Assembly: GCF_014200405.1 (NCBI RefSeq)
Contig: NZ_JACHBQ010000001.1
Location: forward strand, 1,302,001-1,366,000
DNA length: 64,000 nt
From: Cryobacterium roopkundense
GTDB taxonomy: Bacteria > Actinomycetota > Actinomycetes > Actinomycetales > Microbacteriaceae
Direction of reading: 5' to 3'
Shown: in pieces, positions 1 through 15,273 of the stretch
Layout: every line of letters begins with the position of its first letter
Numbering within the stretch: position 1 is the first letter of the stretch
Notes under the pieces: model-generated
The model's database searches: none
What the model was told of the DNA's origin: nothing
The model's input: the letters and a program-made list of their open reading frames with translations, nothing else
Position numbers and translations under genes: made by a program

Positions 1-557
1 CCTACACGGCGACCGGCGGCTGCCTGGAGCGCCGCAATGCGGGAACAGTTGACGACATCTTCACGGACATCGACAACCTCGGGCGCATCTTCGACGTGCC
101 GAACGACGCGACGGCCCTGATCGACGAGGGCCGTGCCCAGCTCGCCGCAGTCGAAACCGCCATCGCAGTCGAGCCCCGGCTGAGCGTCGCCCAGCTGTTC
201 GTCGATGGCACATCGCTCTCCGCGATCGGCGCCGGCGTCGAATACGACATGATCCTCCGCGCAGGCGGCGACAACGTGTACTCGCCCACCGATGCGGCCT
301 TCGCCGATTTCTTCGCCGCGAGCATCTCGCCGGAATCCCTCGCCGCAGCCAACCCAGAGGCCATCGTGTTCGCCGTGAGCACCGAGGAGCAGGCCCTCGA
401 GACCGAGGCGTACCTGCGGGCCACATTCCCGAACCTGGCCGCCGTGCAGAACGACCGGCTGATCGCGATCAGCGCCTCTGACGTGTTTCCTGGCACTCTC
501 GGAAACATTCGCGTGGTGCAGCAGCTCGCCGCCGAACTCTACCCGGCCGCCTTCTAG
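1..557 (+). CDS. Siderophore-type ABC transporter substrate-binding protein (5' partial)
   Basis: This is the C-terminal part of a periplasmic-binding-protein-like lipoprotein of the iron-complex (FecB/BtuF, PF01497) class. The reading frame is open from the left edge (first full codon at 3) and continues to TAG at 555-557, about 184 residues. The visible text has the family's interlobe helix (TVDDIFTDIDNLGRIF), a central GAGVEYDMILRAGGDNVY segment and a C-terminal lobe ending in LAAELYPAAF. An apparent GTG at 96 is internal and not a real start. It is convergent with the ABC gene ending at 682 and may supply the extracellular receptor for a metal chelate, which fits the Fur-like box at 8650. 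The ligand is not predictable. Confidence 0.8.
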   Translation, partial: YTATGGCLERRNAGTVDDIFTDIDNLGRIFDVPNDATALIDEGRAQLAAVETAIAVEPRLSVAQLFVDGTSLSAIGAGVEYDMILRAGGDNVYSPTDAAFADFFAASISPESLAAANPEAIVFAVSTEEQALETEAYLRATFPNLAAVQNDRLIAISASDVFPGTLGNIRVVQQLAAELYPAAF

Positions 558-681: not shown

Positions 682-2331
682 CTAGACCGGGCGACGGATG
701 TCGACGATGCGTCCCGAGGCCGCCAGCGTTGCCGCCCGGTGTGCGATCGTGATCACCGTCACGTCGCCGGGCAAGCCTTGCACCAGTCTGGTCAGGTGGC
801 GCTCGGCGAGCGGATCGAGACTCGCCGTCGTCTCGTCCAGAATGAGGATCCGCGACCGCACGAGCAACGCCCGCGCCAGGCAGAGCCGGGCCTGTTGCCC
901 GCCGGACACAGCCGTGCCTCGCTCGCCGACCACCGTATTCGAACCGTCGGGCCAGGCCTCGATGAAGGCGTTCGCGCCAACATCGTGGAGCGCCTGCATG
1001 ATCTGGCGGTCGGTCGCCCGCGGCGCGGCCAGCCGCATGTTGTCCATCACGGTGCCATGGAAGAGCAGGGCGTCCTGGCCAACCACGGCCACGGCGTTCC
1101 GGAAGTCGGCATCGGAGATCGCCTCGAGGTCCACGCGGTCGCCGGTGGCCGTGACGAGGTCGATCTGACCGCTGTCGGCGGCCCACAGCCTGGACAGCAG
1201 CAGCGCGAGGGTCGTCTTTCCCGCGCCCGATATGCCACGAATCGCCACGCGTTCCCCCGGCGCGATCGTGAGATCAAAGCCATCGAACACCCGGGTCCCC
1301 GCAGTATAGGCAAAGGACACGTTGACGAGATCGAGCCCGAGTGGGCCTGCCGGGAGAGGAAGCGGTACCGCGGCATCCGCTATCTCGGTCTTACCTCCGA
1401 TGCCCGCGAGCACCCGCCGCGCGCTCGCGCGATGGGAATGCAATTGACCGAGGGTGGACCCGGCGTCGGCCACCGGCCCGAGCACGGCGAAGCAACCGGC
1501 CACGAGCGGGGGCAGCGCCGCAAGGCTCAGGCCGGGCGTTTCCATGGCGATGAGGAACAGGGCCACGGCGGTGCCCACGATGGTGACGTCGCGCAGCCCC
1601 GCGGCCAGCACGGTCGTGTGGTCGAGCTGCCGTTGCAGTCCGGCAGCACGGCGGGTGAACCGGTCGAGCTCGCCCTGCACCCGGCTCTGCAGGCCGAAGC
1701 CGATGATTTCCCGTCGCCCGGTGAGGCTTTCAACCACCCGGGCGGAGAGCGCCGAGTTGCAGTCCTGGATGCTGTCGCCCAACCGGCGTGACCGTGCCAC
1801 GTGAACTCGACTGCAGGCCAGGAGCAGGAGCACAGCCAACAGCACCGCGCCGGCCATGAGCGGTTGAACGAGGAAGACCAGCGCTGTACCGACGCCAGCC
1901 ACGACTGCCGTCGCGGCGAGCTGGGCGATCGTGTGCGCGTAGAAGAACTCCAACCTTTCGATATCACCCATGGCCGCCGCGGCCTGGTCGCCGCTGTGCT
2001 GACGGTTCTCCCTCGCCGGCGTGCTGCGAGCGAAGCCGTCGAACAGGCTCATCCGCAGTGCGGCGAGCACGCGGTAGGCGAGGCTGTGCGACACGTCCAT
2101 CTCGTGCCAGGTGAGCCCCGCCCGAAGAAGCACGCCCACGCCCAGCAGTACCCAGAATCCGGAGGGAGGAACGCGCTGTTCGACGACGGCGAGGCCGACC
2201 GCCCAGGCCGTGCCCACCATCAGGGCCGCGAGGGTGAGGGAGCTGAGCACGCTCACGGAGAAGGCCCAGGCGAGGCCCCGTTTTTCTCCGCTCAGGTACG
2301 GGACCAGTCCGAGTATCGGGTGTCGAATCAT
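682..2331 (-). CDS. ABC exporter-fold protein, fused permease-ATPase (subunit 2)
   Basis: This 549-residue half-transporter has an N-terminal membrane domain (about residues 15-300, hydrophobic helices including SVLSSLTLAALMVGTAWAVG) and a C-terminal ATPase. Visible motifs are Walker A GISGAGKTT, signature VSGGQQARL, Walker B ILILDE and the switch His in IAHRA. Its ATG (2331) overlaps the stop of the upstream ABC gene by four bases (ATGA), so the two are translationally coupled and probably form a heterodimer. Organisation resembles CydDC and IrtAB/YbtPQ pairs. It is the last gene of the RiPP operon and most likely moves the modified peptide, outward as in lantibiotic systems or inward as in IrtAB. 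The direction cannot be told from sequence. Confidence 0.85.
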   Translation of the reverse strand: MIRHPILGLVPYLSGEKRGLAWAFSVSVLSSLTLAALMVGTAWAVGLAVVEQRVPPSGFWVLLGVGVLLRAGLTWHEMDVSHSLAYRVLAALRMSLFDGFARSTPARENRQHSGDQAAAAMGDIERLEFFYAHTIAQLAATAVVAGVGTALVFLVQPLMAGAVLLAVLLLLACSRVHVARSRRLGDSIQDCNSALSARVVESLTGRREIIGFGLQSRVQGELDRFTRRAAGLQRQLDHTTVLAAGLRDVTIVGTAVALFLIAMETPGLSLAALPPLVAGCFAVLGPVADAGSTLGQLHSHRASARRVLAGIGGKTEIADAAVPLPLPAGPLGLDLVNVSFAYTAGTRVFDGFDLTIAPGERVAIRGISGAGKTTLALLLSRLWAADSGQIDLVTATGDRVDLEAISDADFRNAVAVVGQDALLFHGTVMDNMRLAAPRATDRQIMQALHDVGANAFIEAWPDGSNTVVGERGTAVSGGQQARLCLARALLVRSRILILDETTASLDPLAERHLTRLVQGLPGDVTVITIAHRAATLAASGRIVDIRRPV

Positions 2332-3977
2332 GCGCGAACCGGCACGTCGTGATCGGCCACAACGACTTCGGCAAGGCGGCCGCCGTCGAGATGCAGCACC
2401 CGACCGGCGTAGTCAAGGGTTTCAGTGCGGTGGGCGATCATCAGAACAACCTTTGTGCGGGCGACGGACTGCAGAGCGGTCATCAGCTGGCGAGCGAGCG
2501 CGTCATTGAGGGCGCTCGTGGGCTCGTCGAGCAGCAGAACCGGGCGGTCGGCCAGGAGCGCCCTGGCCACCGACAGTCGTTGCTTTTGGCCGCCGGAGAG
2601 CGAATCTCCGCCCTCGGCAAGCTCGGCGTCATAGCCGCCAGGCATCGCGAGGATCTCCTCGTGGATACCGGCGGCGCGGGCGGCCGCGTGGAGGTCGGCA
2701 TCCGGTGCCCCTGGGCTGGCGACCGCGAGATTGTCCCTCACCGAGCCTGAGAACAGGTAGCTGTGCTGGGAAACCACGCTCACGTGCGCGGCACCGGCGC
2801 CGTGCCCGGCGACGGAGATCGTGCCGCTCTCGGGTTGGAGATAGCCGAGAATCAGATCGAACAGTGTGCTCTTGCCTGCCCCGGATGGCCCGGTGAGGGC
2901 AGTGATCGCGCCGGGGCGCAGGGTACACGTGGCGCCGCGAAGCACGGGGCTCCCTTCGGTATAGCCGAAGGCCACCTCCGTGATCGTGACCAAGGCCGTG
3001 CCGGGAACGCCCGGGTTCGCCGGGGGTGCCGCCGCGGTGCCGCCACGCAGAGCTTCGATGCCGGCGACCGCGGACAGGCCGAGGTAGCCAGCGTGCCAGT
3101 GGCGGGAAAGTTCCCTGATGGGGCGGAACAGCTCCGACGAGAGCAGCAGCAGCAGGTAGACGTCTGCGGTAGGCTGGCCGGTGCCGGTGGCCGCGAGAAC
3201 GGCGGCAGCGGCGGCGCACACGATGCCGGCCTGGATCGCGAGATCCACCAGTGCGGTATCGAACAGGGAAGTGCGCATCGTGGCGACAGTGGCCCGGTGT
3301 AACTCGTCGGAGCGTCCGCCCAGTCGAGAACGCGTGCGCCCGACCGCGCCGATCAAGCGCAGGGTCTTCATGCCCTGGAGCGATTCGAGAAAATCGGCCG
3401 CCAGACGTTCGTAGCTGTCCCAGTGGATGGTTCCGCGCCGGCGCAGCACGCGGTGCCAGAGGCGCGGGGCCAGCACGGCGACCGCGAGGCAACTGCCGAG
3501 CACGACCGCGAGCCACGGATTGAGCAGTGCAATAGCCACCAGAATTGTCGGGCAGAGCATGAACACCTGCAGCACGTGGCCCACGTACTTGCTCACGTAC
3601 ACGTCGACGCCGTCGATGCCGTCAGTGATCGTGAGGCGTGCCACTCCGGCTCGTTCGGACGCGTCGTGAAGTCGTCCAGGGGAGAGAGCAGCCGCCGCAA
3701 GCTCGCGACGAAGGCGCACTCGCACGGCCGTGCCGAGGCCGCTCGCGACCTGGGCCTGAACGAGGTTGACAAGTACCCGCAGCACAGCGACGGCCACGAT
3801 GCCGCCGAGGAGGCCGAGTGCGGCCTGACCGCGACCGGCAACGAGCGCGGCGAGGGCATGGGCAGTGAACCACGCCTGGGCGAGATAGGTGCCGGCGCCG
3901 AGCATCAGCAGCACCGTCGTGCCGCAGAGGCGGAGGGGATGCCGCAGTGTGAGCGCCCACAGGGTTCGGTTGAGCAT
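2328..3977 (-). CDS. ABC exporter-fold protein, fused permease-ATPase (subunit 1)
   Basis: The product is 549 residues when started at ATG 3977 (MLNRTLWALTLRHPLRL). A longer open frame upstream lies over the preceding gene and reads as arginine-rich nonsense, so it is rejected. A hydrophobic membrane domain (about residues 15-290) precedes an ATPase with Walker A TGPSGAGKST, signature LSGGQKQR, Walker B VLLLDEP and switch IAHRTE. It starts on the last base of the SagB stop codon (TGATG) and overlaps the next ABC gene by ATGA. It has the same length as its partner, consistent with a heterodimeric type IV exporter-fold transporter dedicated to the cluster product. Confidence 0.85.
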   Translation of the reverse strand: MLNRTLWALTLRHPLRLCGTTVLLMLGAGTYLAQAWFTAHALAALVAGRGQAALGLLGGIVAVAVLRVLVNLVQAQVASGLGTAVRVRLRRELAAAALSPGRLHDASERAGVARLTITDGIDGVDVYVSKYVGHVLQVFMLCPTILVAIALLNPWLAVVLGSCLAVAVLAPRLWHRVLRRRGTIHWDSYERLAADFLESLQGMKTLRLIGAVGRTRSRLGGRSDELHRATVATMRTSLFDTALVDLAIQAGIVCAAAAAVLAATGTGQPTADVYLLLLLSSELFRPIRELSRHWHAGYLGLSAVAGIEALRGGTAAAPPANPGVPGTALVTITEVAFGYTEGSPVLRGATCTLRPGAITALTGPSGAGKSTLFDLILGYLQPESGTISVAGHGAGAAHVSVVSQHSYLFSGSVRDNLAVASPGAPDADLHAAARAAGIHEEILAMPGGYDAELAEGGDSLSGGQKQRLSVARALLADRPVLLLDEPTSALNDALARQLMTALQSVARTKVVLMIAHRTETLDYAGRVLHLDGGRLAEVVVADHDVPVRA

Positions 3978-5236
3978 CACGAGGCGGCCCCTCCCTCGTG
4001 AAAAAGGGCGACCGCGTGCAGGATTCGTTGGCCGCTCAGCGTCGTTTCTCGCGCTGCCCCGCCGTGCGCATCCGTCCAGCCGGCGACCGGACGCGAGCGC
4101 GTACGCATCCGCTCGTCCGTCGCCTGAAAGACGAGGTTCGCCGCAGCGAGAGTCGCCCACCAGAGACAGCTGACCAGGTGGGCCGGCGTCGAGCCTTCGC
4201 GCGCCGTAAACAGCACGAGAAGATCGCTCATGCGTAGCCACTCCTGCGCGCTCGACCTCTCGACAGCCTCGGCGAGCGCGGCGTGGTCGTGCGGTGTCAC
4301 GAGGTGAAGGCTGCACCCGGTCGGCCGGGCGCCCTCGGCGATCTCTAACGCGACCTTCATGAGCCCCGCCGACCAGGCCGGAGTCGGTGGTCGCCGAGCG
4401 CTGCTGTGCATATCGGCGAACGGCATACTGCGACGAGCGGCGAGCGCCGACGTGCTGATCGCGGGCACCGACAGGGCAGCAGCTGCCGTTCCGCCGAGTC
4501 CGGCGGCCTCGCCGAGCGCTTCGGCGAGCGAAGACACGTCGGGCGATGAGCCGTGGGAGCGCAATTCCGCGGGTGCCGCCGCGGTCGAGGTCAGACCTTC
4601 GAGCGCCGGGACCGCACCGTTTCCGAGATGCAGCGCAGTGATGGCCAGTTCGGGTGCCCTGCCCCGCCATCCTGTCGGCCACGCGCCGTGTCGAGTCCCG
4701 TGCCGAGGCAGCCCAGCCATGTCCGCCAACCCGTGCGGGGTCAGGTCATCGAGTCGGGTGGCCGCGAGGCCGTGTCGAGCGGCGACGGCGGCGATCGCCG
4801 TGAGCGCGTAGGCTGCGTCGGCGATCAGTCCAGGCCAGGCACGGTGGTGATACTTCCCCGCCGCTCGCTGCGGCAGCACGGTGAGGATGACGAGTGTGCC
4901 GGAGCCCAGAGTGCAGCGGCCCAGGCGCACGAGACGGTTCGTCTCGTGGTCGTACACCGCACGGGTGCCCCCCGCCTCGCCGTCCTGGCCGCAGAGCACG
5001 TGCGTCTGCACGGGATAGCACGCCCCGGCGGAGGGAATTGCACGGTGACGGATAGCTGTCGGCGCGCCCGTTCGCGGCGACGGGTGGAAGGAATCGCTCC
5101 ACCAGACCTCCTGCAGGATGGCGCCGATTCGAGTGGCCGCGAGCGTGGGGCCGGCCCACGCGTTCATCGCCGGTCCGCGCGGCTCGGGGGGACCGGGAGC
5201 GATGCGCGACCAAGCGTGGTCAGTGGAATCGAGCAA
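3977..5236 (-). CDS. SagB-type nitroreductase-fold dehydrogenase (azoline oxidase)
   Basis: The 419-residue protein carries the SagB/ThcOx family signature RAIPSAGACYPVQTHV (about residues 64-80), part of the FMN-binding nitroreductase fold. The family oxidises azolines made by YcaO enzymes to azoles. The C-terminal half is alanine-rich and weakly conserved by eye and may be a second degenerate nitroreductase-like lobe. It lies 15 bp downstream of the YcaO gene and is coupled to the ABC gene that follows. Presence beside YcaO and a TOMM C-like protein indicates a thiazole/oxazole-type RiPP pathway. As the precursor has no Cys, its substrates would be oxazolines from Ser or Thr (inference). 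The start at 5236 is the first in frame and is not independently supported by a strong ribosome-binding site. Confidence 0.8.
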   Translation of the reverse strand: MLDSTDHAWSRIAPGPPEPRGPAMNAWAGPTLAATRIGAILQEVWWSDSFHPSPRTGAPTAIRHRAIPSAGACYPVQTHVLCGQDGEAGGTRAVYDHETNRLVRLGRCTLGSGTLVILTVLPQRAAGKYHHRAWPGLIADAAYALTAIAAVAARHGLAATRLDDLTPHGLADMAGLPRHGTRHGAWPTGWRGRAPELAITALHLGNGAVPALEGLTSTAAAPAELRSHGSSPDVSSLAEALGEAAGLGGTAAAALSVPAISTSALAARRSMPFADMHSSARRPPTPAWSAGLMKVALEIAEGARPTGCSLHLVTPHDHAALAEAVERSSAQEWLRMSDLLVLFTAREGSTPAHLVSCLWWATLAAANLVFQATDERMRTRSRPVAGWTDAHGGAARETTLSGQRILHAVALFHEGGAAS

Positions 5237-5251
5237 GGAAGGTATCCGTTC

Positions 5252-6655
5252 TCACATGTGGGGCGGGGGAATGAGCGTGAAGTCGTCGGGTTTCACCGGA
5301 TCGCGCCTTCGCCAGCCGCGCGACCGCGCCGCCGCGCGAAACCGCTCGGAGCCGAGATAGGCGAAGGCCGCGGGCGCGTTGGGCACGAGCCCGGTCACGA
5401 ACACGCGCTCAACGCGCAGGGCGGTGCGGGCCACGTCGGATGTCGTGAGGTCTCGCGAGAACACGCGGTGACCTCCGGCCGCCAGCCGCGCCGTGATCTG
5501 CTGCTGTGTGACCGGCGCGATCTCGCCGACGCTGATGGTGCCGAGCGCGGGCGCGGTGAAACGCGTGGCGAGATGGTGCACCCGGGGATCGAGCCAGACC
5601 TGTACGTGCGCGCCGAGGTCGCGCACCGTGCAGAAGTTCTCGCCCACGTCGTCGAGGTATCGGAGATCCTCTCGGTGATCGAGGTACAGGCCGCGGGCCA
5701 TCAGCCCGGCATCCACGGCCTGGAATACCCAGCCGGTGCTCGCTTGCAGCCCCGAGGAATAGATCCAGGTGTGCACGGCCTCGAGCACGGCCTTGCGGGC
5801 GGCTTCGGCGGGGTCGAGCTTGCAGGCGAATCCCGCGGCGTAGAGGCCCGTGTCAGGGTCGTAGATCAGGGCCGCCATCGCCGGGGCCAGCTCGGAGGGC
5901 ATCTCCACGATCCAGTACCGGAGGTTGCAGCCGGACATGTGCTCGCTGAGGCCGGGCACGCTCGCCGGGTCGATGCCGCGCGTGGGGCCGTCGAGGTGCC
6001 ACCAGAGCTCGAGGGCGTCGCGTTCGATGCACTCGAGGACGGCGCGGTCCCGGGCATCCTGGTTTCCCTGCCCGGTGGCGATTCCGGCGTAGTTCAAGTG
6101 GTGGACGCGATCAAGGTGGCGAAAGCGGCGCTGCCGCCAGTTGAGGTACACGAGCGACGCCGGCAGCCAGACATCCGACGATGGAGCGTCGGCGCGGCGT
6201 TCCCGGCACCTGGTCCACAGCGTGCGCACGTGGTCGGTGAGCTGTCGGTACGGAAACCCGGGGGAGGAGAGCTGCCAGGGCGTGAACTGCGGCAGGGACT
6301 CCACGTCGATCACAGTCAGGCCGCGCTCGCGCAGCTCGGCGGCCGTTCCCTCTTTCTGTTCCCCTGGGTGCAGTTCTGCGGGCAGGAAATTGCCACAGTA
6401 GCGTTCTATGCCCTCCGCGACGGCCGCGATCCAGGCTTGCCTGTCGTCGCCGAACGTGGTTCCGAGCGAAACCCGGTCGGCGGGCCAGTCGCCGAGTTCG
6501 CGGGCGTTCGACACCTCGGCGGTCATCGACGTGTAGGCCGGGGGAGCCGCATCGGGACGTAGGACCGGGCGCACCGAGCGGATGATGCCCATCTCCCCGT
6601 CGACGAGGGATGCCAGGTCGAACTCGGGCGGGACAGCGGTGGTGGGGGTGGTCAT
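5252..6655 (-). CDS. YcaO-domain cyclodehydratase of a TOMM-like RiPP
   Basis: Started at ATG 6655 (MTTPTTAVPPEFDL) the protein has 467 residues. The start overlaps the upstream stop (ATGA), and the longer open frame to 7411 is out-of-frame noise over the peptidase gene. YcaO ATP-binding signatures are visible: AVAEGIERYCGN (about residues 85-97), TGQGNQDARDRAVLECIERDALELWW (family ExxERDA block, about 205-230) and AARKAVLEAVH. YcaO enzymes use ATP to activate a backbone amide for attack by a Cys/Ser/Thr side chain. The C terminus ends in IPPPHM instead of the PxPxP tail usual in azoline-forming members. The neighbours encode the expected leader-binding and oxidase partners. Confidence 0.88.
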   Translation of the reverse strand: MTTPTTAVPPEFDLASLVDGEMGIIRSVRPVLRPDAAPPAYTSMTAEVSNARELGDWPADRVSLGTTFGDDRQAWIAAVAEGIERYCGNFLPAELHPGEQKEGTAAELRERGLTVIDVESLPQFTPWQLSSPGFPYRQLTDHVRTLWTRCRERRADAPSSDVWLPASLVYLNWRQRRFRHLDRVHHLNYAGIATGQGNQDARDRAVLECIERDALELWWHLDGPTRGIDPASVPGLSEHMSGCNLRYWIVEMPSELAPAMAALIYDPDTGLYAAGFACKLDPAEAARKAVLEAVHTWIYSSGLQASTGWVFQAVDAGLMARGLYLDHREDLRYLDDVGENFCTVRDLGAHVQVWLDPRVHHLATRFTAPALGTISVGEIAPVTQQQITARLAAGGHRVFSRDLTTSDVARTALRVERVFVTGLVPNAPAAFAYLGSERFRAAARSRGWRRRDPVKPDDFTLIPPPHM

Positions 6656-7545
6656 GGCGTCCTCGATACGAAGTGGGCGGGGTGGTAAGGGGTGGAGGGG
6701 CGCTGCATCCACGCGAGCACCCGTTCTCCGATGCTGCCGGCAGGGTCGGGGCGCTCGGCCGTGAGCCGGTGTCCCCATGGGCCGTTGATCAGGCTCACGG
6801 GCGCCGGCCAGGAGTCGTGCAGGTCGAGGGCTTCGAGAATAAAGAAGTCCTGGGCGCCGGTGACGACCAGCAGGGGAGACGTGGCCCCGGCATATCGTGC
6901 GTGCAGGTCGGTTGGCCCCGCAGCCCAGAGCTCCCGCCACAGGTCGGCTTGCCCGGCTGTGGGATCTTCGAGCGGATGCGTCGCCTCGGGGCCTGCATCG
7001 ACGGCGCGCGCGAGCAGGTCGGTCGCGCGGCGCTCGCCGAGCGGTGGCCCGCTCCGACGTTCGAACCCGTGCTCGAACCACCAGCCGAACCGGTCGGCGA
7101 GGCGTGGGCATCCGTTCGGGTCGCGTGCGGTCTCGAAGCGTCCGAGGGCCGGCACGAGCGCCACCACGGCGTCGATCCGGGCTGAATGCTCGGGCACGCC
7201 GGCCAGGGCACGGGCGGTTTCGAGGGCGCAGTGCGCCGCGTACGACGAACCGAGCAGCGTGATGCCGCCCCGATGCCACGTCGAGTTCAGCACCGCCCGA
7301 ACGGTGGCGGCGCCGTCTGCGCCCTCGGAGGAGTAGGGGTGCCAGTGGCCGGCGGAGGCGTATCGGCCACGGACATCCGCTACCAGGCAGGTGTAACCGC
7401 GGGCCTGCCACGAGCGAGCCTGCGCGGTATGAACCTCGCAGTCGTAGGGCGTTCGAATGACGACTGTGCCGCGCGGCTCGGCGGCCTCAGCGACGAATCC
7501 AGAGAGGGTGACGCCGTCGGGCGCCTGAACGGCGAAGCGCCTCAT
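6652..7545 (-). CDS. S15 / CocE-like alpha/beta-hydrolase peptidase
   Basis: The product has 297 residues from ATG 7545 (MRRFAVQAPDGVTLSG), a start fixed by a four-base ATGA overlap with the upstream gene. The layout matches X-Pro dipeptidyl-peptidase/CocE hydrolases: oxyanion motif TVVIRTPYD, nucleophile elbow LLGSSYAAH, acidic residue in VTGAQDFF and histidine in GPWGHRL. Unlike full-length S15 enzymes it lacks the C-terminal jelly-roll domain. Its position inside the RiPP operon suggests leader removal, trimming of the product or hydrolytic immunity. The precursor has one proline (NPFD end), so prolyl specificity is plausible but unproven. Confidence 0.75.
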   Translation of the reverse strand: MRRFAVQAPDGVTLSGFVAEAAEPRGTVVIRTPYDCEVHTAQARSWQARGYTCLVADVRGRYASAGHWHPYSSEGADGAATVRAVLNSTWHRGGITLLGSSYAAHCALETARALAGVPEHSARIDAVVALVPALGRFETARDPNGCPRLADRFGWWFEHGFERRSGPPLGERRATDLLARAVDAGPEATHPLEDPTAGQADLWRELWAAGPTDLHARYAGATSPLLVVTGAQDFFILEALDLHDSWPAPVSLINGPWGHRLTAERPDPAGSIGERVLAWMQRPSTPYHPAHFVSRTP

Positions 7546-8378
7546 GGGAGCGGTGCCGGCTCTGGATAGGCCAACACTGTGTGCTCGCTCGCCCGCAACG
7601 ATCGGGCATTGAACTGCCACGCTCGGGTGCGATAGATGCGAAGACGCTCGGCGTCGAACGCCCAGGCCTGGGCCATGTCGAGCAGCCGGAGCCCCACCAT
7701 CCGGCCGGCGAGGTCGCTCATTGCCGTGGGAACATTCGTGCGTGCTTCCAGCCACGACGCGAGCTCTTCTGCCGTGCCGGATGCGGCGAGGCGTCGCTTC
7801 ATCACCTGGGCGCTCGACGGGTCGGTCATGTCGAGCGAGAGCGGGTCGACCCAGAGCTGGCTGCCTTCGCGGTGCACCCGCAGCCAGGCGACGCCTCGGA
7901 AGGGCAGGGTGTCGAGGTTGTCCCAGAGGGCCCGCGGCGGTAGGCCGCCGGCCAGCCAGATCACGAGCGCCGGCCTGAATTCCGTCAGCGCCTGGGTGAT
8001 CTCGATGACGCTCCCGAGGTCCACACTGTCATACACCCCGGTGACATCGAGCGAGCGAACATCGGCGCCCAGCTCGGCGAGGTCCGCAGCCAGGTGTGCG
8101 AGAGCTGGCTCCGTGCACACGATCAGAACCCGGCTCTTCGGCGTGGGCCATGTCGGGGCCGCATCGTGTTCGTGCCGGGTGGTGACGGCTGAGTGCACAC
8201 GCTGCCAGGAGGCCTGCCCCGCGGCATCGAGTGCAACGTCGCGGCCGCCGGCCAGTGCGTGCAGCTGCCATACGGGAATGGGAGAGCCCGTGAGCCGGAG
8301 GAATACACCGTCGCTCGTGCGCACGGCGGTTCCGTTGGCGGTGTCGATGATGTCGAAGGGGATGCGGGGGGTCGTCAT
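7542..8378 (-). CDS. TOMM C-protein-like (ocin-ThiF-like) leader-binding protein
   Basis: From ATG 8378 (MTTPRIPFDIID) the protein has 278 residues. Upstream in-frame codons read through the hairpin at 8413-8450 and are unlikely to be translated. The N-terminal 70 residues look like the RiPP recognition/peptide-clamp region of E1-like TOMM C proteins. The middle has a Rossmann-like stretch (RVLIVCTEPALAHLAADLAELGADV, family-like) and the end carries WLRVHREGSQLWVDPL and LRIYRTRAWQFNARSL, where homologues have zinc-binding Cys residues that are absent here. Such proteins bring the leader peptide to YcaO. Assignment rests on context plus weak resemblance and needs structure comparison. Confidence 0.6.
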   Translation of the reverse strand: MTTPRIPFDIIDTANGTAVRTSDGVFLRLTGSPIPVWQLHALAGGRDVALDAAGQASWQRVHSAVTTRHEHDAAPTWPTPKSRVLIVCTEPALAHLAADLAELGADVRSLDVTGVYDSVDLGSVIEITQALTEFRPALVIWLAGGLPPRALWDNLDTLPFRGVAWLRVHREGSQLWVDPLSLDMTDPSSAQVMKRRLAASGTAEELASWLEARTNVPTAMSDLAGRMVGLRLLDMAQAWAFDAERLRIYRTRAWQFNARSLRASEHTVLAYPEPAPLP

Positions 8379-8412
8379 CTGGCTCGATTCGGTTGCGGGG
8401 ACGTTAACGGGT

Positions 8413-8450
8413 GGTGCGCCCCGCAGAATTGGCCATTTGCGGGGCGCACC
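8413..8450 (-). terminator. 13-bp perfect hairpin after the precursor gene (attenuator/processing stem)
   Basis: GGTGCGCCCCGCA (8413-8425) pairs with TGCGGGGCGCACC (8438-8450) around a 12-base loop GAATTGGCCATT. It lies 26 bp after the precursor stop and before the first biosynthetic gene. There is no U-tract. Such stems between a RiPP precursor and its enzymes commonly raise precursor mRNA over the downstream genes by partial termination or 3'-end protection. Confidence 0.7.
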
Positions 8451-8475
8451 GAAGCCCATGGGGGGGTGTCAGCTC

Positions 8476-8580
8476 CTAGTCGAAGGGATTCTCGACGAGT
8501 GCGTTCGAGTGCGTGGCGGAGAGGTGTGCCAGCTGCTCGGTTCCTGCGATTTCTGCGACGACGGTGTTTTCGGATTCCAT
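8476..8580 (-). CDS. Candidate RiPP precursor peptide, 34 residues
   Basis: The ATG at 8580 follows a strong ribosome-binding site (AGGAAGGA, six bases upstream). The frame ends at TAG 8476-8478. The peptide starts MESENTVVAEIAGTEQL, acidic and helix-prone like a leader, and ends HLSATHSNALVENPFD (residues 19-34). Candidate modifiable residues are Ser21, Thr23 and Ser25, with His19 and His24 nearby; there is no cysteine. It is the first gene of the minus-strand operon and faces the Fur-like box at 8650. There is no GG or other classic cleavage site; the core boundary is unknown. Size, position, ribosome-binding site, hairpin downstream and enzyme context all support it being the substrate. 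Confidence 0.72.
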   Translation of the reverse strand: MESENTVVAEIAGTEQLAHLSATHSNALVENPFD

Positions 8581-8609
8581 GAGGAGTCCTTCCTGTTGTG
8601 TTGTTGCAC

Positions 8610-8629
8610 GACCTCCCGTTTGGGTGGTC
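8610..8629. promoter_or_regulatory. Short inverted repeat in the precursor 5' leader
   Basis: GACCTCCC GTTT GGGTGGTC forms an eight-pair stem with one mismatch at the predicted 5' end of the precursor mRNA, about 30 bases before its ATG. It could protect the transcript or bind a regulator. Confidence 0.4.
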
Positions 8630-8635
8630 AGCTAG

Positions 8636-8665
8636 ACTCTAACCGACAATGACAATCATTATCAA
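8636..8665 (-). promoter_or_regulatory. Predicted promoter of the precursor operon
   Basis: On the minus strand TTGATA (8665-8660) and TAGAGT (8641-8636) are spaced by 18 bases, a reasonable housekeeping sigma match. The Fur-family palindrome covers the -35 element, so binding would block transcription. Confidence 0.5.
8650..8664. promoter_or_regulatory. Fur/Zur-family 7-1-7 operator
   Basis: TGACAATCATTATCA is a 7-1-7 palindrome with one mismatch, in an otherwise GC-rich sequence. It agrees closely with the general Fur-superfamily pattern TGATAATNATTATCA and with actinobacterial Zur sites (TGAAAATCATTTTCA; 13 of 15). In actinomycetes iron control is usually by DtxR/IdeR with a different box, so Zur is the favoured reader (inference). 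It lies between the divergent precursor and beta-propeller genes and could repress both. Confidence 0.65.
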
Positions 8666-8674
8666 TAAGGAGCG

Positions 8675-9928
8675 ATTATCAGCGAGTCGCATGAATCCAG
8701 GTTGGTCGTCGCCGACCAGAAAGCGGGCGCCCTGTATGTCGTCGATCCACGCACGTGCCAGATCCTGCGGCACGACACCGAAACCGTGCTGGCCGAGCAC
8801 GCTGGCTTCCTGCCGCTGCCGCACGGTCGGCTCGCGTACATTGACGACGGCGCCGGCGAGCTCGTGGTGCTCAACGTCTTCACGAACAGCCAGGACTGGC
8901 GAGAGAGCGCGGTCTCGGTCGCCATTCCCGGCGAGCACCTGGCCGCGAGCAGTACCGGCCGATTCATCGCCGTGACGACAGGCCTGGGCCGTGATTGGCA
9001 GCCGTGGAGCGACCTCGTCACCCTCGTTGACAGGCACGGCGCGCGCCCCCGCAGCCGCCGCATTCGCACCCGCCGCGGCGAACCCGGCGTCGTGATTGCG
9101 CGGGATATGGGCGAGGCGGACGCATCACCCGCTCTCGTCATTCGCCATCGCGAGCCGGGCTCCCTCGAAATGATCGGCGTCGCGGCCGTCCAATCGGCGG
9201 ATGCCCACGGCCCCGTCCTCCGCGGCGATCTCACCGAGCTGCCCGACGACGGCCATGGCGATGCCTACGATCCGCTGACGGGCATGATCTTCAACGCCAC
9301 CGGTTCCGGTGTGTACCGGCACACCCTCGAGAACGGGGTGCTTGTTGCGCACCCCACGGTGCCGTGGAACGTCCCGGGGAGGGCCTACTTTGTGCGCTTC
9401 TGCCCCCGCGACCGCTGCCTCTTCGCCGTGGTGCGCGGCGGCGACCCGGATCCGAAGAACTGGCAGGTCTGGACCAACCATCTCTGGCGCTACAGCCTGG
9501 ACACCCACAGCATCAGCACCGCCCCGATCGGCCCCGGCCTGGTATTTCGACTGGGCCTCACCCGCGATCACGCCGTGGTCACGCGCATCCGTCCCGACGG
9601 CGACGAGGCGGTCAGCTATCGTCGGCGTCCGGGTGCGGCACTGCAGGTGCACGGTCGCAGTGCTCTCCCGCCGATGAGCGACGCCCCGCGGCCCGGACGC
9701 GAGCCCTGGGATCGGGCGGAACGCCGGGCCATAGCCGCGTCGTCGGCGGGCTCCCTGTTTGCCGTGACGCGTGGTGGCCACGGCGAGCTGCACATTCTGG
9801 ATGCCGCAGACGCTGGCGCCACGATGCGCACGGTTAGGCTGCCGACGGCTCTCAACGAGGGCGGACACCTCGCCTGGCTCACCCGCGGCGAGGGAGACGC
9901 TCACGGTCACGACCTGGTGGGCCGCTAA
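8675..9928 (+). CDS. Beta-propeller protein of the RiPP cluster
   Basis: The protein has about 410-418 residues with repeated short beta-strand text typical of YncE/WD-like or S9-type propellers (ALYVVDPRTCQIL, LVVLNVFTNSQ, SLFAVTRGGHGELHILDA). No catalytic Ser motif, signal peptide or membrane helix is seen. The start is unclear. The ribosome-binding site AAGGAG at 8667-8672 precedes an in-frame ATT (8675) and ATC (8678), while the first common start codon is TTG 8702, 29 bases away; TAA at 8666 bounds the frame. Its stop is directly followed by the ATG of the oligopeptidase (TAAATG), implying joint work on the peptide. Function unknown: possibly a chaperone, an inhibitor or a lid-like partner of the peptidase. 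Confidence 0.75.
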   Translation: MISESHESRLVVADQKAGALYVVDPRTCQILRHDTETVLAEHAGFLPLPHGRLAYIDDGAGELVVLNVFTNSQDWRESAVSVAIPGEHLAASSTGRFIAVTTGLGRDWQPWSDLVTLVDRHGARPRSRRIRTRRGEPGVVIARDMGEADASPALVIRHREPGSLEMIGVAAVQSADAHGPVLRGDLTELPDDGHGDAYDPLTGMIFNATGSGVYRHTLENGVLVAHPTVPWNVPGRAYFVRFCPRDRCLFAVVRGGDPDPKNWQVWTNHLWRYSLDTHSISTAPIGPGLVFRLGLTRDHAVVTRIRPDGDEAVSYRRRPGAALQVHGRSALPPMSDAPRPGREPWDRAERRAIAASSAGSLFAVTRGGHGELHILDAADAGATMRTVRLPTALNEGGHLAWLTRGEGDAHGHDLVGR

Positions 9929-11569
9929 ATGACGGGCGCCATGCACCGCAGCTTTGAGCACGCGGCCGGCTCCTGGCCCGCCCGGACGCGTCTCACGGCC
10001 GCCCTCGTGCGAGCCGAAGACTACGAGGCGCCGGGACTCCCCATTCTGCGCGGGAGAACGGCGTTCTATCGAAATCGACGGGCGGGGGAATCAGACTTCT
10101 GCCTGCGTCGGGCCGACATCGACCGGCTGTCAAGCCGCTTCGCAGCGGAACGGGTTTTGCTGGACCCTGCGGTATTCCACCCCACGGGAACAGCGGTCAT
10201 CAACGCTTTCTCGGTGAGCCCCGACGGCACCAACGTCGTCGCCGAGGTCGCTCTCGACGGGCGAGAGACCGGCCAACTCGTCGTGATCGACGCCGTCACC
10301 GGCACCCAGCACCGAGTGCCCCGGCTCGAGGTGAGATACAGTGCGGCGGTGTGGTTGCCTGACAGCTCGGGGTTCTCGTGCACGGGACGCCTCGACATCG
10401 AGGAGGACTCGTCGTACCTGTGCATTCCGGGCGCCACTGCCGTTGTGGTGCGCGAGCAACCCGCCGCGGCGCGCGCGGCACCCGCGCGCGCCGCGACATC
10501 CGTTGCGATCGGTGAGCGTCATCTTTCGCTGCGTACTGACGGCGGATCGAGCGTCTTGGAGATCGGCGGCACACCGCCGGCGCGGCTCGACCTCGGGCTC
10601 GATCGCCTCATGCACGTGGACCGGTTTTCGGCCAATACCGTCGGCACCGGCCACGAGGCCTGGATCGTGGCCTCCGACCCGGGTACGCCGCCGCGGCTGT
10701 ACCGTCTCGACCCCGAGACCGGGCAGACACAGGTCTTCTCCCCGGCTGGCGGCGGGATTGGCGGGAACCTCGCTCACCAGCGACTCACAGCCCCGATGAG
10801 TGACGGAGCAGAGGTGGACCTGCTCGTGACCGCCCGTCGCGACGATCTGGATCCGTCTGGCCTGCCCCACACGCCGCGTGCGCTCATTCTCACGTGCTAT
10901 GGCGGCTTCGGGGTCTCGAGCGGGCCGGAGTACGAAGCGAGCGTTCCGGCGTGGCTCGAACTCGGCGGCGTGTTCGTGACGGCGCAGATCCGCGGCGGCG
11001 GCGAGAAAGGCCCCGCCTGGCACGAGGCGGGTCGCCGGGCGAATAAGCTGCGCTCGATCACCGACCTAATCGAGTGCGCCGTGTACCTCCAGCGCACCGG
11101 ATGGTGCACTTCGGCGTCTCTGTGCCTGATGGGTGCCTCGCACGGCGGTCTGGTTGTGCTCGCCGCCGCGCTTCGACGCCCGGGCCTGTGCGCCGCCGTG
11201 GCCTGTACCGCGCCTCTGCTGGACATGACGCAATTCCACCGCGAGGGCCTGGGAGCCCGCTGGCTGACGGAGTTCGGCCACCCAGACGACCCCACAGAAC
11301 GGGCGCGCCTGCTGAGGTATTCACCGCGACATCTGCTGGAGGCACTGCCACTGGACGCCCCGCTTCCGGCGGTGCTCTGCGCAGTTTTTGAGGCGGACGA
11401 ACGCGTGCCTGCGGCGGGAGCCGCCGAATTTGTGAAGTCCCTGCGGCGACGCGGTGGCCGGGCATGGCTTCGCAGCGAAGCCGCCGCCGGACATGGGCCC
11501 AAACCGCTCGACCAGGTGCGCCGGTTCTCGGCCGATGTGCTGAGCTTCGCCGCCGCCCACACAGAATAA
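9929..11569 (+). CDS. Prolyl oligopeptidase family serine peptidase (S9A)
   Basis: The 546-residue protein has an N-terminal beta-propeller (about 30-300) and a C-terminal alpha/beta-hydrolase domain. Hallmarks are YGGFGVSSGPEYEAS, the QIRGGGEKGPAWHEAG block, the nucleophile GASHGG (Ser404), Asp in FEADERVP and His in AAAGHGP, giving a complete triad. No signal peptide is seen, so it is likely cytoplasmic. The ATG follows the propeller gene's TAA with no gap. Family members cut after proline and in several RiPP pathways (POPB, PCY1) remove leaders or macrocyclise. Here the only proline of the precursor is Pro32 near its end, so it may trim the C terminus, cyclise, or act on leader sequence in a non-prolyl way. 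Confidence 0.85.
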   Translation: MTGAMHRSFEHAAGSWPARTRLTAALVRAEDYEAPGLPILRGRTAFYRNRRAGESDFCLRRADIDRLSSRFAAERVLLDPAVFHPTGTAVINAFSVSPDGTNVVAEVALDGRETGQLVVIDAVTGTQHRVPRLEVRYSAAVWLPDSSGFSCTGRLDIEEDSSYLCIPGATAVVVREQPAAARAAPARAATSVAIGERHLSLRTDGGSSVLEIGGTPPARLDLGLDRLMHVDRFSANTVGTGHEAWIVASDPGTPPRLYRLDPETGQTQVFSPAGGGIGGNLAHQRLTAPMSDGAEVDLLVTARRDDLDPSGLPHTPRALILTCYGGFGVSSGPEYEASVPAWLELGGVFVTAQIRGGGEKGPAWHEAGRRANKLRSITDLIECAVYLQRTGWCTSASLCLMGASHGGLVVLAAALRRPGLCAAVACTAPLLDMTQFHREGLGARWLTEFGHPDDPTERARLLRYSPRHLLEALPLDAPLPAVLCAVFEADERVPAAGAAEFVKSLRRRGGRAWLRSEAAAGHGPKPLDQVRRFSADVLSFAAAHTE

Positions 11570-11622
11570 GAAAGGTTACACACCCGTGTGAGGCGAGGCA
11601 GCCGCGCAGTTAAGCTGTCCGA

Positions 11623-14600
11623 ATGAAACCTGCACGCGTCGGCGCCTCCCAGCACGTCAATTCGAGCCCCGGGGCGGCCACGCCCGGTGCGGCGGATGCC
11701 GCCAGGCCGGCCCGCTCGCAGGCACTGCTTGACGCGCTTCGCACCACGGTCGTGATCGCCGACGGCGCCATGGGCACCATGCTGCAGGAACACAACCCCA
11801 CCCTCGACGATTATCAACAGCTCGAGGGCTGCAACGAAATCCTCAACGTCAGCCGCCCCGACATCATCGCGGCCATCCACGACGTCTATCTCGAAACCGG
11901 CATCGACGCCGTGGAGACCAACACGTTCGGCGCTAACTGGTCCAACCTCTCCGACTACGACATTGAAGACCGCATCGAGGAGCTCGCCCGCACCGGCGCC
12001 CTGATCGCCCGCGAGCGTGTGGAGGCCTTCGAAGCCCGCGACGGCCGGGTGCGCTGGGTTCTCGGTTCGATGGGCCCGGGCACCAAGCTGCCGAGCCTCG
12101 GCCACACCACCTATGCCAACCTCAAATCCACGTTCGCGGAGCAGGCCCTGGGGCTCATCCGCGGCGGCGCCGACGCGTTCCTGATCGAGACCTCGCAGGA
12201 CCTGCTGCAGACCAAGTCCGCGGTGAACGGATGCAAGCAGGCCGTCGCAGAGACCGGCATCCGCTTGCCCATTTTCGTGGAAGTGACGGTGGAGACCACC
12301 GGAACCATGCTGATGGGCAGCGAGATCGGCGCGGCACTGACAGCCCTCGAGCCGCTCGGGATCGACGCGATCGGCCTGAACTGTGCCACCGGGCCCACCG
12401 AGATGAGCGAGCACCTGCGGCACCTGTCCAAGTTCTCGCGCGTTCCCGTGATCTGTATGCCCAACGCCGGTCTGCCGCAGCTCACCAAGACCGGCGCGAG
12501 CTACCCGCTCACGCCGGAGCAGCTCGCCACCGCCCACGAACAGTTCGTGAAGGAGTTCGGCCTGGGACTCGTGGGCGGATGCTGCGGCACGACCCCGGAG
12601 CACATGAAGGCCGTCGTCGATCGGCTGCGCGGCACCCCGGTGAAGGCCCGCACGCTCGAGGTCGACCCCGGCGTCGCGAGCCTGTACCAGCACGTGAGCT
12701 TCGACCAGGACAGCGCGTTCCTCGCGATCGGGGAGCGCACCAACGCCAACGGCTCCCGGGCGTTCCGCGACGCGATGCTCGCCGAGAACTGGGACGACTG
12801 CGTCGACATCGCCCGCGCCCAGGTACGCGACGGCGCCCACCTGCTCGACGTCTGCATCGACTACGTGGGCCGCGACGGCGTTGCCGACATGAAACAGGTC
12901 GTCTCCCGGCTTGCAAGCGCGTCCACCCTGCCGCTCGTGATCGATTCCACCGAGCCGGCCGTGCTTCAGACCGGCATGGAACTCATCGGCGGGCGGCCCG
13001 TCGTCAACTCGGTCAACTTCGAAGACGGCGAAGGTCCCACCTCGCGCTTCGGACTCATCATGCCCCTGGTGAAGGAACACGGCGCCGCCGTGATTGCCCT
13101 CACCATCGACGAGGAGGGCCAGGCTCGCACGGCCGAGCACAAGGTGCGCATCGCCACCCGCCTCGTCGACACTCTCGTGAACGAGTGGGGCATGCGCGTC
13201 GAGGACATTATCGTGGACGCCCTCACCTTTCCGATCGCCACCGGCCAGGAAGAGACCCGCCGCGACGGCATCGAGACCATCGACGCCATTCGCCAGATCA
13301 AGGCCAAATACCCCGGCATCCACACCACCCTTGGCGTCTCCAATGTCTCGTTCGGGCTCAACCCGGCCGCGCGGTCCGTGCTCAACTCGGTGTTCCTGCA
13401 CGAGGCCACCGAGGCCGGCCTCGACTCGGCCATCGTCAACTCGGCCAAGATCGTGCCGCTCGCCTCGGTTCCCGATGACCGTCGCAAGGTGGCTCTCGAC
13501 CTCGTCTGGGACCGCCGCGAGTACGACGCCGACGGAACCCTCACCTATGACCCGCTCGTGGCCCTGCTCGACCTGTTCGCGGGCGTTGACTCCGCCGCTT
13601 TGAAAGACGAACGGGCCGCGGAACTCGCCGCTCTGCCGGTGGGGGAACGGCTCGAACGCCGCATCATCGACGGCGAAGCCAAGGGACTCGAGGCCGACCT
13701 CGACCTCGCCCGTGCTGGGGGCCTCTCCGCCCTCGACATCGTCAATGTGCACCTGCTTGTGGGAATGCAAGTGGTGGGTGCCCGGTTCGGCAGCGGCGAG
13801 ATGCAGCTGCCCTTCGTGCTGCAGTCCGCCGAGGTGATGAAGGCCGCCGTGGCTCTGCTTGAGCCGCACATGGAGAAGTCCGAGGCGGCCGGCAAGGGCA
13901 CTATCGTGCTCGGCACGGTGCGCGGCGACGTGCACGACATTGGCAAGAACCTCGTGGACATCATCCTCACCAACAACGGCTACGACGTGATCAACATCGG
14001 CATCAAGCAGCCGATTGCCGAGTTCATCAGGGTGGCCGAGGAGAATAATGCGGATGTGATCGGCATGAGCGGCCTGCTCGTGAAGTCCACCGTGGTGATG
14101 AAAGAGAACCTGCTTGAGCTGAACTCCCGCGGGCTCGCCAAGACGTGGCCCGTGCTGCTCGGAGGTGCCGCCCTCACCCGCTCCTACGTGGAAGACGACC
14201 TCGATAGCGTGTTCGACGGGCAGGTGCGCTACGCCCGCGACGCCTTCGAAGGCCTCGCTCTGATGGAACCTCTCGTGGCCATCGCGCGCGGAGCCGACCC
14301 GGACTCCGTGGGCCTGCCTGCCCTGAAGAAGCGCATCCACAAGAAAAGCCTGCTGACCCTTACCGAGCCAGAAGAGATGCCGAGCCGCTCCGACGTGGCC
14401 TCGGACAATGCGGTTCCCGTTCCGCCGTTTTGGGGCACCCGCATCGTCAAGGGCGTAGCCCTCGCGGAGTTCTCCGCCTTCCTCGACGAGCGAGCCACAT
14501 TCATGGGGCAGTGGGGCCTCAAGCCGAGCCGCGCCGAAGACGGCGCGAGCTACCAGGAACTCGTAGACACCGTGGGCCGGCCGCGGCTGCGCTACTGGCT

Positions 14601-15273
14601 CGATCGCATTCTCGGGGAGGGGATGCTCGACGCGTCCGTGGCCTACGGCTATTTCCCTGTTGTCGCGGAAGGCGACGACATGGTCGTGCTGCACCACGGC
14701 GACGACCCCACCGGGCTGGTGGGCCCGGCCGGGCTGCTCGCTCCCGACGGGGGATCGGGTGCCCCGGTGGGCACCGAGCGATTGCGGTTCGCCTTTCCGC
14801 GCCAACGCCGCGACAAGCACCTCTGCCTCGCCGACTTCGTGCGGTCGAGGGAGAGCGGGCAAACGGATGTCGTGGCTGTGCAGCTCGTGACGGCCGGGTC
14901 CAACGTGGACTCGGTCACCGCAAAGCTCTTCGCCGAGAACAAGTACCGCGACTATATGGAGCTCAACGGGCTCACCATGCAGCTCACGGAGGCCCTCGCC
15001 GAGTACTGGCACTCCCGCATCCGTGCCGAATTCGGTGTGGGCGCGGAAGACCCCTCCGACGTGGCCGGCATGTTCAAGCTCGAGTACCGCGGCGCGCGCT
15101 TCTCGCTCGGCTACCCGGCGTGCCCCGAGATGGAGGACCGCCGCAAGGTCGTCGAGCTGCTGAAGCCAGAGCGGATGGGCGTGGTCTTGTCGGAGGAGTT
15201 ACAGCTGCACCCGGAGCAGTCAACGGACGCCTTCGTCTTCCACCACCCCCAGGCCAAGTACTTCTCCGTCTAG
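11623..15273 (+). CDS. metH: Cobalamin-dependent methionine synthase
   Basis: This full-length 1216-residue MetH transfers a methyl group from methyltetrahydrofolate to homocysteine through B12. The homocysteine domain (about 30-350) has zinc ligands Cys254 (GLNCATGP) and Cys320/Cys321 (GGCCGTTPEH). The pterin domain follows (about 365-640, GERTNANGSRAF, ASTLPLVIDS). The cap and B12-binding domains (about 660-900) have the axial-ligand motif DVHDIG with His771. The AdoMet reactivation domain has GYPACPEMEDR near the C terminus. The ATG at 11623 gives about 30 extra Ala-rich residues before the conserved region. No cobalamin riboswitch can be fitted in the 53-bp leader. Functionally it joins the sulfur-amino-acid genes at 22883-25467. 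Confidence 0.97.
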   Translation: MKPARVGASQHVNSSPGAATPGAADAARPARSQALLDALRTTVVIADGAMGTMLQEHNPTLDDYQQLEGCNEILNVSRPDIIAAIHDVYLETGIDAVETNTFGANWSNLSDYDIEDRIEELARTGALIARERVEAFEARDGRVRWVLGSMGPGTKLPSLGHTTYANLKSTFAEQALGLIRGGADAFLIETSQDLLQTKSAVNGCKQAVAETGIRLPIFVEVTVETTGTMLMGSEIGAALTALEPLGIDAIGLNCATGPTEMSEHLRHLSKFSRVPVICMPNAGLPQLTKTGASYPLTPEQLATAHEQFVKEFGLGLVGGCCGTTPEHMKAVVDRLRGTPVKARTLEVDPGVASLYQHVSFDQDSAFLAIGERTNANGSRAFRDAMLAENWDDCVDIARAQVRDGAHLLDVCIDYVGRDGVADMKQVVSRLASASTLPLVIDSTEPAVLQTGMELIGGRPVVNSVNFEDGEGPTSRFGLIMPLVKEHGAAVIALTIDEEGQARTAEHKVRIATRLVDTLVNEWGMRVEDIIVDALTFPIATGQEETRRDGIETIDAIRQIKAKYPGIHTTLGVSNVSFGLNPAARSVLNSVFLHEATEAGLDSAIVNSAKIVPLASVPDDRRKVALDLVWDRREYDADGTLTYDPLVALLDLFAGVDSAALKDERAAELAALPVGERLERRIIDGEAKGLEADLDLARAGGLSALDIVNVHLLVGMQVVGARFGSGEMQLPFVLQSAEVMKAAVALLEPHMEKSEAAGKGTIVLGTVRGDVHDIGKNLVDIILTNNGYDVINIGIKQPIAEFIRVAEENNADVIGMSGLLVKSTVVMKENLLELNSRGLAKTWPVLLGGAALTRSYVEDDLDSVFDGQVRYARDAFEGLALMEPLVAIARGADPDSVGLPALKKRIHKKSLLTLTEPEEMPSRSDVASDNAVPVPPFWGTRIVKGVALAEFSAFLDERATFMGQWGLKPSRAEDGASYQELVDTVGRPRLRYWLDRILGEGMLDASVAYGYFPVVAEGDDMVVLHHGDDPTGLVGPAGLLAPDGGSGAPVGTERLRFAFPRQRRDKHLCLADFVRSRESGQTDVVAVQLVTAGSNVDSVTAKLFAENKYRDYMELNGLTMQLTEALAEYWHSRIRAEFGVGAEDPSDVAGMFKLEYRGARFSLGYPACPEMEDRRKVVELLKPERMGVVLSEELQLHPEQSTDAFVFHHPQAKYFSV

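Follow-up and report, generated by a model that had tools for sequence, protein, structure and literature searches.

Layout of the ami locus in Cryobacterium roopkundense

The window analysed here, a stretch of 64,000 nucleotides from Cryobacterium roopkundense (contig NZ_JACHBQ010000001.1, positions 1,302,001 to 1,366,000; GC content 65.7%, host genome 4.53 Mb), carries near its left end a gene cluster for a ribosomally synthesized and post-translationally modified peptide (RiPP). Judged from its sequence, the locus is a motif-A streptamidine (ami) cluster and a new member of a known family; between its two divergent operons lies a predicted operator of the Zur type, with counterparts at the corresponding promoters of most related loci. 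The features are as follows, with coordinates in the window.

1..557, plus strand: 3' end of the FecB-type binding-protein gene of the importer operon amiF (PF01497, 59.2 bits)
682..2331, minus strand: amiT1, ATP-binding cassette (ABC) exporter subunit (PF00664 and PF00005, Pfam)
2328..3977, minus strand: amiT2, ABC exporter subunit (PF00664 and PF00005, Pfam)
3977..5236, minus strand: amiE, divergent SagB/nitroreductase-like dehydrogenase (below cut-off here; relative in locus L045 above the PF00881 cut-off)
5252..6655, minus strand: amiD, YcaO protein with C-terminus IPPPHM (PF02624, 124.9 bits; alignment)
6652..7545, minus strand: amiC, S15-type hydrolase, short form without PepX_C (PF02129, 85.8 bits)
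7542..8378 (or 8459), minus strand: amiB, predicted E1/RRE-type partner, start at 8378 or 8459 (no Pfam match; predicted fold)
8476..8580, minus strand: amiA, 34-residue precursor (NF040714, 64.3 bits, cut-off 40)
8650..8664, no strand assigned: predicted Zur-type operator TGACAATCATTATCA, between the divergent ami and propeller-POP operons (pattern searches)
~8702..9928, plus strand: solo beta-propeller, start uncertain (AmiX-like by position)
9929..11569, plus strand: prolyl oligopeptidase, POP (PF00326, 116.1 bits, and PF02897; Ser404-Asp490-His522 intact)

The minus-strand operon reads amiA-B-C-D-E-T2-T1 (8580 to 682), with genes that overlap or are tightly spaced; the propeller and POP genes run divergently from amiA and end at 11569. 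All genes named in the first-pass annotation were recovered at their positions by open reading frames (ORFs) and Pfam/NCBIfam scans, and its gene calls were correct. The boundaries that it drew leave out a FecCD/FecB-type importer operon left of amiT1; it also passed over the operator at 8650-8664, the genes around which it had named correctly.

The importer operon is convergent with amiT1 and occupies L003 9638-12557, its end being window positions 1-557. It consists of a FecCD-type permease gene (L003 9638-10741; PF01032, 313.4 bits), an ATPase gene (10738-11547; PF00005, 111.3 bits) and the FecB-type binding-protein gene (11544-12557); a homolog of the ATPase was found in all four loci tried. 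The published gene set of the streptamidine cluster in Streptomyces albidoflavus J1074 comprises amiF1-F4 (FecBCDE-like), amiA, amiB, amiC, amiD (YcaO), amiE, amiT1 and amiT2 (PMC8442711). The Cryobacterium locus shares with it the precursor family, equivalents of amiB-E and of amiT1/T2, and importer genes of the FecBCDE type; in contrast to the J1074 cluster, its importer operon is separate and convergent, and three importer genes are seen instead of four, with one permease gene (a second permease elsewhere in the genome was not sought). It also differs in the presence of a POP gene and a short AmiC, as in 18 other loci.

Precursor, maturation enzymes and propeller

The amiA product, MESENTVVAEIAGTEQLAHLSATHSNALVENPFD, was recognized by the NCBIfam model NF040714 ("streptamidine family RiPP"; 64.3 bits against a cut-off of 40). 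Its HLSATH core (residues 19-24) is followed by the conserved SNALVENPF, so that the core and the ALV motif behind it have the arrangement typical of the family. All 34 residues recur in another Cryobacterium locus, L167, in which the other cluster proteins have diverged to 60-88% identity; since the short ORF remains unchanged against this divergence, it is a real gene. AmiA is identical in L019 as well. For wider comparison, a genome-contig scan yielded 134 relatives; 80 of these, together with four loci of genomes G107 and G139, gave a set of 84, from which six precursor-less loci cut by contig ends (L020, L047, L051, L063, L084, L091) were set apart, leaving 78 (74 + 4) with a precursor, 56 of them Streptomyces by genus label. 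The motif LAHxSAxHSNALVxNPF was present in the precursors of all 78 (86 instances), with the cores HDSASH (28), HLSATH (25), HLSASH (20), HASASH (8) and HASATH (5). The distribution is patchy: the precursor was found in 3 of 396 genomes of the phylum and the YcaO protein in 3 of 150 genomes of the family, the present genome included, while streptamidine-type clusters have been reported from over 230 species, with a role that their authors call unknown (PMC8442711). Genome G139 (contigs C1 and C5) contains three ami loci, L014, L015 and L016, which lie close to contig ends and share one precursor peptide, through either duplication or an assembly effect.

The first-pass annotation had described a RiPP cluster that depends on YcaO and has no Cys in its core; this stands, as the 34-residue peptide contains no Cys and its HLSATH core differs from the Cys/Ser/Thr-rich cores of azol(in)e-forming thiazole/oxazole-modified microcins (TOMMs) and linear azol(in)e-containing peptides. 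The lack of Cys is expected, since streptamidine precursors are without Ser/Thr/Cys-rich regions (PMC8442711). The further claim that the cluster belongs to no described class fails: an undescribed TOMM class was rejected on the match to NF040714 and a core identical to that of streptamidine. In S. albidoflavus J1074, HLSATH yields streptamidine, in which a six-membered amidine links His1 and Leu2 (PMC8442711); because the cores agree letter for letter, streptamidine is also the predicted product here, and the modification to be expected is a single net dehydration that forms one six-membered amidine, in place of the series of azole rings that had been anticipated. YcaO-dependent amidine rings also occur in bottromycin and klebsazolicin, which differ in carrying thiazoline or azole rings as well and in having other precursors (PMC8442711).

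AmiD is encoded by the single YcaO gene detected in this genome, and its nearest named relative comes from Cryobacterium sp. PH31-O1 (86%). It is a standalone YcaO protein with the proline-rich C-terminus of the family, and it scored 176.5 bits with the SagD model TIGR03604 (cut-off 219.25). AmiB had no Pfam match in the domain scan and reached 11.1 bits with the leader-binding model TIGR03882 (cut-off 36.9; E 0.33); a structural model built with 26 family sequences (pLDDT 86.3) was closest to McbB, TruD/LynD and MccB, and TruD also emerged from the prediction of the streptamidine authors (PMC8442711). The modelled fold supports the assignment of AmiB as an E1/RRE-type partner of McbB/TruD-like build, in line with the "C-like" partner of the first-pass annotation, for which the sequence hint lies below the cut-off. 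The SagB-type oxidase that it had named corresponds to AmiE, a putative dehydrogenase that here falls short of both family models (PF00881, 13.7 bits, cut-off 23.5; TIGR03605, 14 bits, cut-off 78.4); the AmiE relative at the same position in L045 reaches 40.2 bits with PF00881. The E1/RRE-like fold of AmiB, the hydrolase AmiC and the two ABC exporters agree with the family, in which amiB, C, D, E and F are required for streptamidine and amiT is partly required (PMC8442711).

A product unrelated to streptamidine, made by a new azol(in)e-forming TOMM class with rings of -18/-20 Da, has very little probability. The SagD-like YcaO protein, the McbB-fold partner and the SagB-like protein speak for it, as do the dehydrated LSA peptides, consistent with oxazoline, that accumulate in an amiE mutant (PMC8442711); yet the SagD, leader-binding and SagB models (TIGR03604, TIGR03882, TIGR03605) all remained below their cut-offs, and the identical core in S. 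albidoflavus is converted to an amidine with Ser and Thr unmodified (PMC8442711).

Both serine peptidases retain their catalytic residues: AmiC Ser101, Asp233 and His259 are invariant in the 77 sequences aligned, from which two over-long ones had been excluded, and all 20 aligned POP sequences have the Ser404-Asp490-His522 triad. POP occurs in 19 of the 78 loci, adjoining the propeller, and a survey based on computed frames linked its presence to AmiC length. In 18 of the 19 POP loci AmiC has 298-352 residues, the 19th (L024) having an AmiC frame that extends into AmiD; in 57 of the 59 loci without POP it has 463-582 residues, the exceptions being L016 (347, at a contig end) and L055 (1078, a frame run-on left out of the survey). 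PepX_C was detected in the one long AmiC scanned and was absent from the two short ones scanned. In view of this split, the two serine peptidases plus solo propeller represent one of two recurring architectures; they recur in relatives and are not peculiar to the strain. In L024 (Streptomonospora alba, 8882-11344) the amiC frame continues without a stop into amiD (821 aa), either as a natural AmiC-AmiD fusion or through a sequence error.

A homolog of the propeller was found in 76 of the 78 loci; the two exceptions, L032 and L088, extend only about 2.1 kb upstream of amiA. Its predicted fold is AztD-like, with structures of the zinc chaperone AztD (6CMK, 6N01, 6CK1) as best matches; this likeness has no counterpart in sequence, where no NCBIfam model matched at E up to 1, hhalign against 17 AztD sequences gave a probability of 16.7, and comparison with the sequences of solved structures produced weak partial matches only (best E 0.029), so that homology to AztD is not supported at this level. 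The propeller has no obvious export signal by a crude hydropathy score, on which the top-scoring propeller is level with exported controls. Published AmiX is the gene upstream of the importer genes in J1074 (PMC8442711); by position, the propeller is an AmiX-like candidate.

Predicted Zur-type operators

In the window, the pattern TGANAATNATTNTCA had two matches at up to two mismatches (0.26 expected), with the site at 8650-8664 exact. At up to one mismatch it occurred at four places in the genome, among which the 8650-8664 site is included by construction of the pattern; the reversed control had none. A one-mismatch copy lies 33 bases before the importer permease gene, one match falls inside a ruvB-like gene (identity read from the ORF), and the identical 15-mer TGACAATCATTATCA stands 19 bases before a ZnuA-family gene (PF01297, 242.5 bits). 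This gene starts an operon that continues with an ABC ATPase and two ABC-3 permeases and ends with a FUR-family gene. An operator that fits a published Zur consensus is common to the zinc-uptake genes of this genome and the ami cluster, the regulator being identified by context only. A looser Zur pattern proved uninformative on this genome (581 matches per strand; control 71).

A function of the cluster for iron or some other metal, with its palindrome bound by a different FUR-family regulator, is improbable. The FecBCDE type of the importer and a second FUR-family gene in the genome would suit such an arrangement, and NCBIfam scores do not separate the znu-adjacent regulator from Fur; however, the identical 15-mer precedes a ZnuA-family operon and not an iron operon, the published Zur consensus of Streptomyces coelicolor fits the site (PMC5472717), and the four places that had IdeR-like boxes at up to two mismatches are not in the neighborhood of the cluster (an unspecific pattern, with nine in the reversed control).

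The chromatin immunoprecipitation consensus of S. coelicolor Zur, tGaNNatSatNNtCa (PMC5472717), was applied unchanged to the related loci. Within 300 bases upstream of amiA it was found exactly in 32 of the 78, with up to one mismatch in 59 and with up to two in 73, compared to 20, 51 and 137 of 3304 random background windows of the same loci, which include propeller and importer promoters. The sites mostly begin 68-111 bases before the start codon. Among 300 permuted palindromic half-sites none reached 59 (median 0); the best, at 52, is close to the motif. Altogether 127 sites at up to one mismatch were counted in 1,605,766 bases, 110 of them at promoters of amiA or the propeller gene; of the remaining 17, at least seven lie at propeller starts or importer promoters. 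Streptomyces loci contribute 49 of 56 at one mismatch and 54 of 56 at two, other loci 10 and 19 of 22, and in L168, which belongs to a further genome of the same family, the corresponding position is occupied by an exact site. Palindrome content as such was discarded as a promoter mark, with 6-7 pairs in 40 of the 78 loci against about 35% of 2929 background windows; only the Zur consensus discriminates.

In six further genomes, two from the precursor search and four chosen after sites at their ami loci had been seen, so that these ami sites are not independent, exact sites were rare (2-6 each). The 18 distinct sites fall to eight ami promoters, five genes counted as zinc-linked and five unassigned places. 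Those outside the ami loci include sites before AztB and AztD, both of which score above their cut-offs, before an AztC-like binding protein that scores below, before a ZnuB/ZnuC-like pair and before an MRF GTPase, which we take to be zinc-linked. In the genome of L045, an exact Zur-type site was noted before an SBP_bac_5 binding-protein gene (L146), and in G139 another that is flanked by an ABC-type gene and an ORF without assignment (L142); going by their sites, the adjacent genes are possible further members of the zinc-regulated set. The Arthrobacter genome that contains L023 has a Zur-like gene about 1.2 kb upstream of its ami importer operon (L151).

Motif-B clusters were found in 7 of 394 genomes of the class, and their precursors share only the ALV..PF end. 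In four of the seven (L169, L171, L174 and L175, of one family), a GGAAATGGTTTCC palindrome, not significant per locus, lies about 35-40 bases upstream of the precursor motif, and in two a FUR-family gene 46-51% identical to that of the present genome is near the precursor (L171 9067-9381, L175 10155-10541). No AmiE or POP match was obtained in any of the seven. These comparisons support a link to Zur for motif A, with no extension to motif B.

No connection between streptamidine and Zur was apparent in the open-access literature, mostly judged from listings and with most subscription papers outside its scope; PMC8442711 does not mention "zur". The family itself is known, and the operator evidence for Zur control of motif-A ami promoters is what the sequence comparisons suggest as new.

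Proposed function in zinc acquisition

The explanation favored here, which is moderately probable, is that the ami cluster is a zinc-starvation-induced RiPP system for zinc acquisition under Zur. AmiD and its E1-type partner AmiB would activate the backbone of the AmiA core; AmiC would free the N-terminus, and the His1 amine would then close the six-membered amidine on Leu2 of HLSATH, as others have shown for the same core. Zinc-loaded Zur may repress the cluster at the predicted operators, so that the peptide would be produced in zinc starvation. AmiT1 and AmiT2 would export it, the FecBCDE-type importer could bring back a metal-bound form, and the presumably cytosolic propeller, together with the two serine peptidases, may act on the peptide once it has returned, processing it or freeing its zinc. 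The metallophore-type importer within the cluster, together with the operators and the AztD-like fold of the propeller, argues for such a system; the family match and core, the gene set and the fold of AmiB support the ami assignment on which it builds.

Several observations weigh against it. The related loci are mostly Streptomyces and for this reason not independent, and five of the 78 lack an amiA-upstream site even at two mismatches. In motif-B clusters, the consensus was matched within 600 bases upstream of the precursor in none of seven loci at up to one mismatch and in one at up to two, and no propeller match was obtained (0 of 7). The FUR-family protein of the znuA-like operon is below the cut-off of every NCBIfam model, including that for Zur (48 bits, with 167 required), and the zinc and manganese models do not reach theirs with the znuA-like protein; because neither passes, both are called Zur and ZnuA on the strength of context, Pfam and a His-rich loop. 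In liquid chromatography-mass spectrometry, purified streptamidine showed no binding to any of the seven metals assayed, zinc among them, and an amiD mutant was without phenotype under metal starvation (PMC8442711). The last two results could mean either that the zinc ABC transporter masks the phenotype, since loss of ami alone may have no visible effect as long as this transporter works, or that streptamidine is a fragment of the active form.

Following the second possibility, the streptamidine family might tentatively be regarded as a ribosomal zincophore system of which streptamidine is the spent fragment, although this is rather unlikely. What is exported and binds zinc would be a longer peptide, in which the invariant SNALVxNPF follower is retained along with a part oxidized by AmiE; the importer would take it up in zinc starvation, the AztD-like cytosolic propeller would handle it, and cutting by AmiC and POP would release the zinc and leave the HLSATH amidine. 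Such a scheme would explain why streptamidine does not bind metals and is lost on deletion of importer genes, why the oxidase is essential despite an unoxidized product, why conservation is higher in the follower than in the core, and why Zur sites stand at ami promoters. On the other side, regulation or polarity could account for the importer effect, and the follower may be a recognition or cleavage site, as the authors suggest (PMC8442711).

The absence of metal binding and of a starvation phenotype would suit a peptide that acts as a signal or modulator made when zinc is short, in a zinc-regulated cluster whose importer senses or recycles it. The operator evidence fits such a role equally well, and a function in signaling or development is what the authors propose (PMC8442711); nevertheless it is a doubtful alternative, as the cluster contains a FecBCDE-type importer, called an iron transporter by the authors and needed for streptamidine production (PMC8442711), and the closest fold to that of its propeller belongs to a zinc chaperone.

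For zinc acquisition under Zur, a close parallel by description, not by genes, is the zincophore coelibactin in the Zur regulon of S. coelicolor, likewise the peptide product of a cluster with Zur-type operators; coelibactin is nonribosomal, and the product here a RiPP (PMC5472717). If the favored explanation is true, a ribosomally made zinc-acquisition peptide would take its place beside this nonribosomal one. The operator evidence provides a widespread peptide of unknown role with a concrete, testable function, and if motif-A clusters are Zur-controlled, the role of streptamidine becomes testable at once; the comparison of metal-limited with replete medium that the first-pass annotation suggested was well aimed, since the promoters have Zur-type sites.

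Two features adjoin the cluster. Between the convergent importer and ami operons lies an inverted repeat with perfect 16-nt arms (575-590 and 655-670) and a 64-nt spacer, perhaps a two-way terminator. The next gene downstream of POP, at 11623-15273 and outside the cluster, encodes a cobalamin-dependent methionine synthase (PF02574, PF00809, PF02965 and B12-binding domains).

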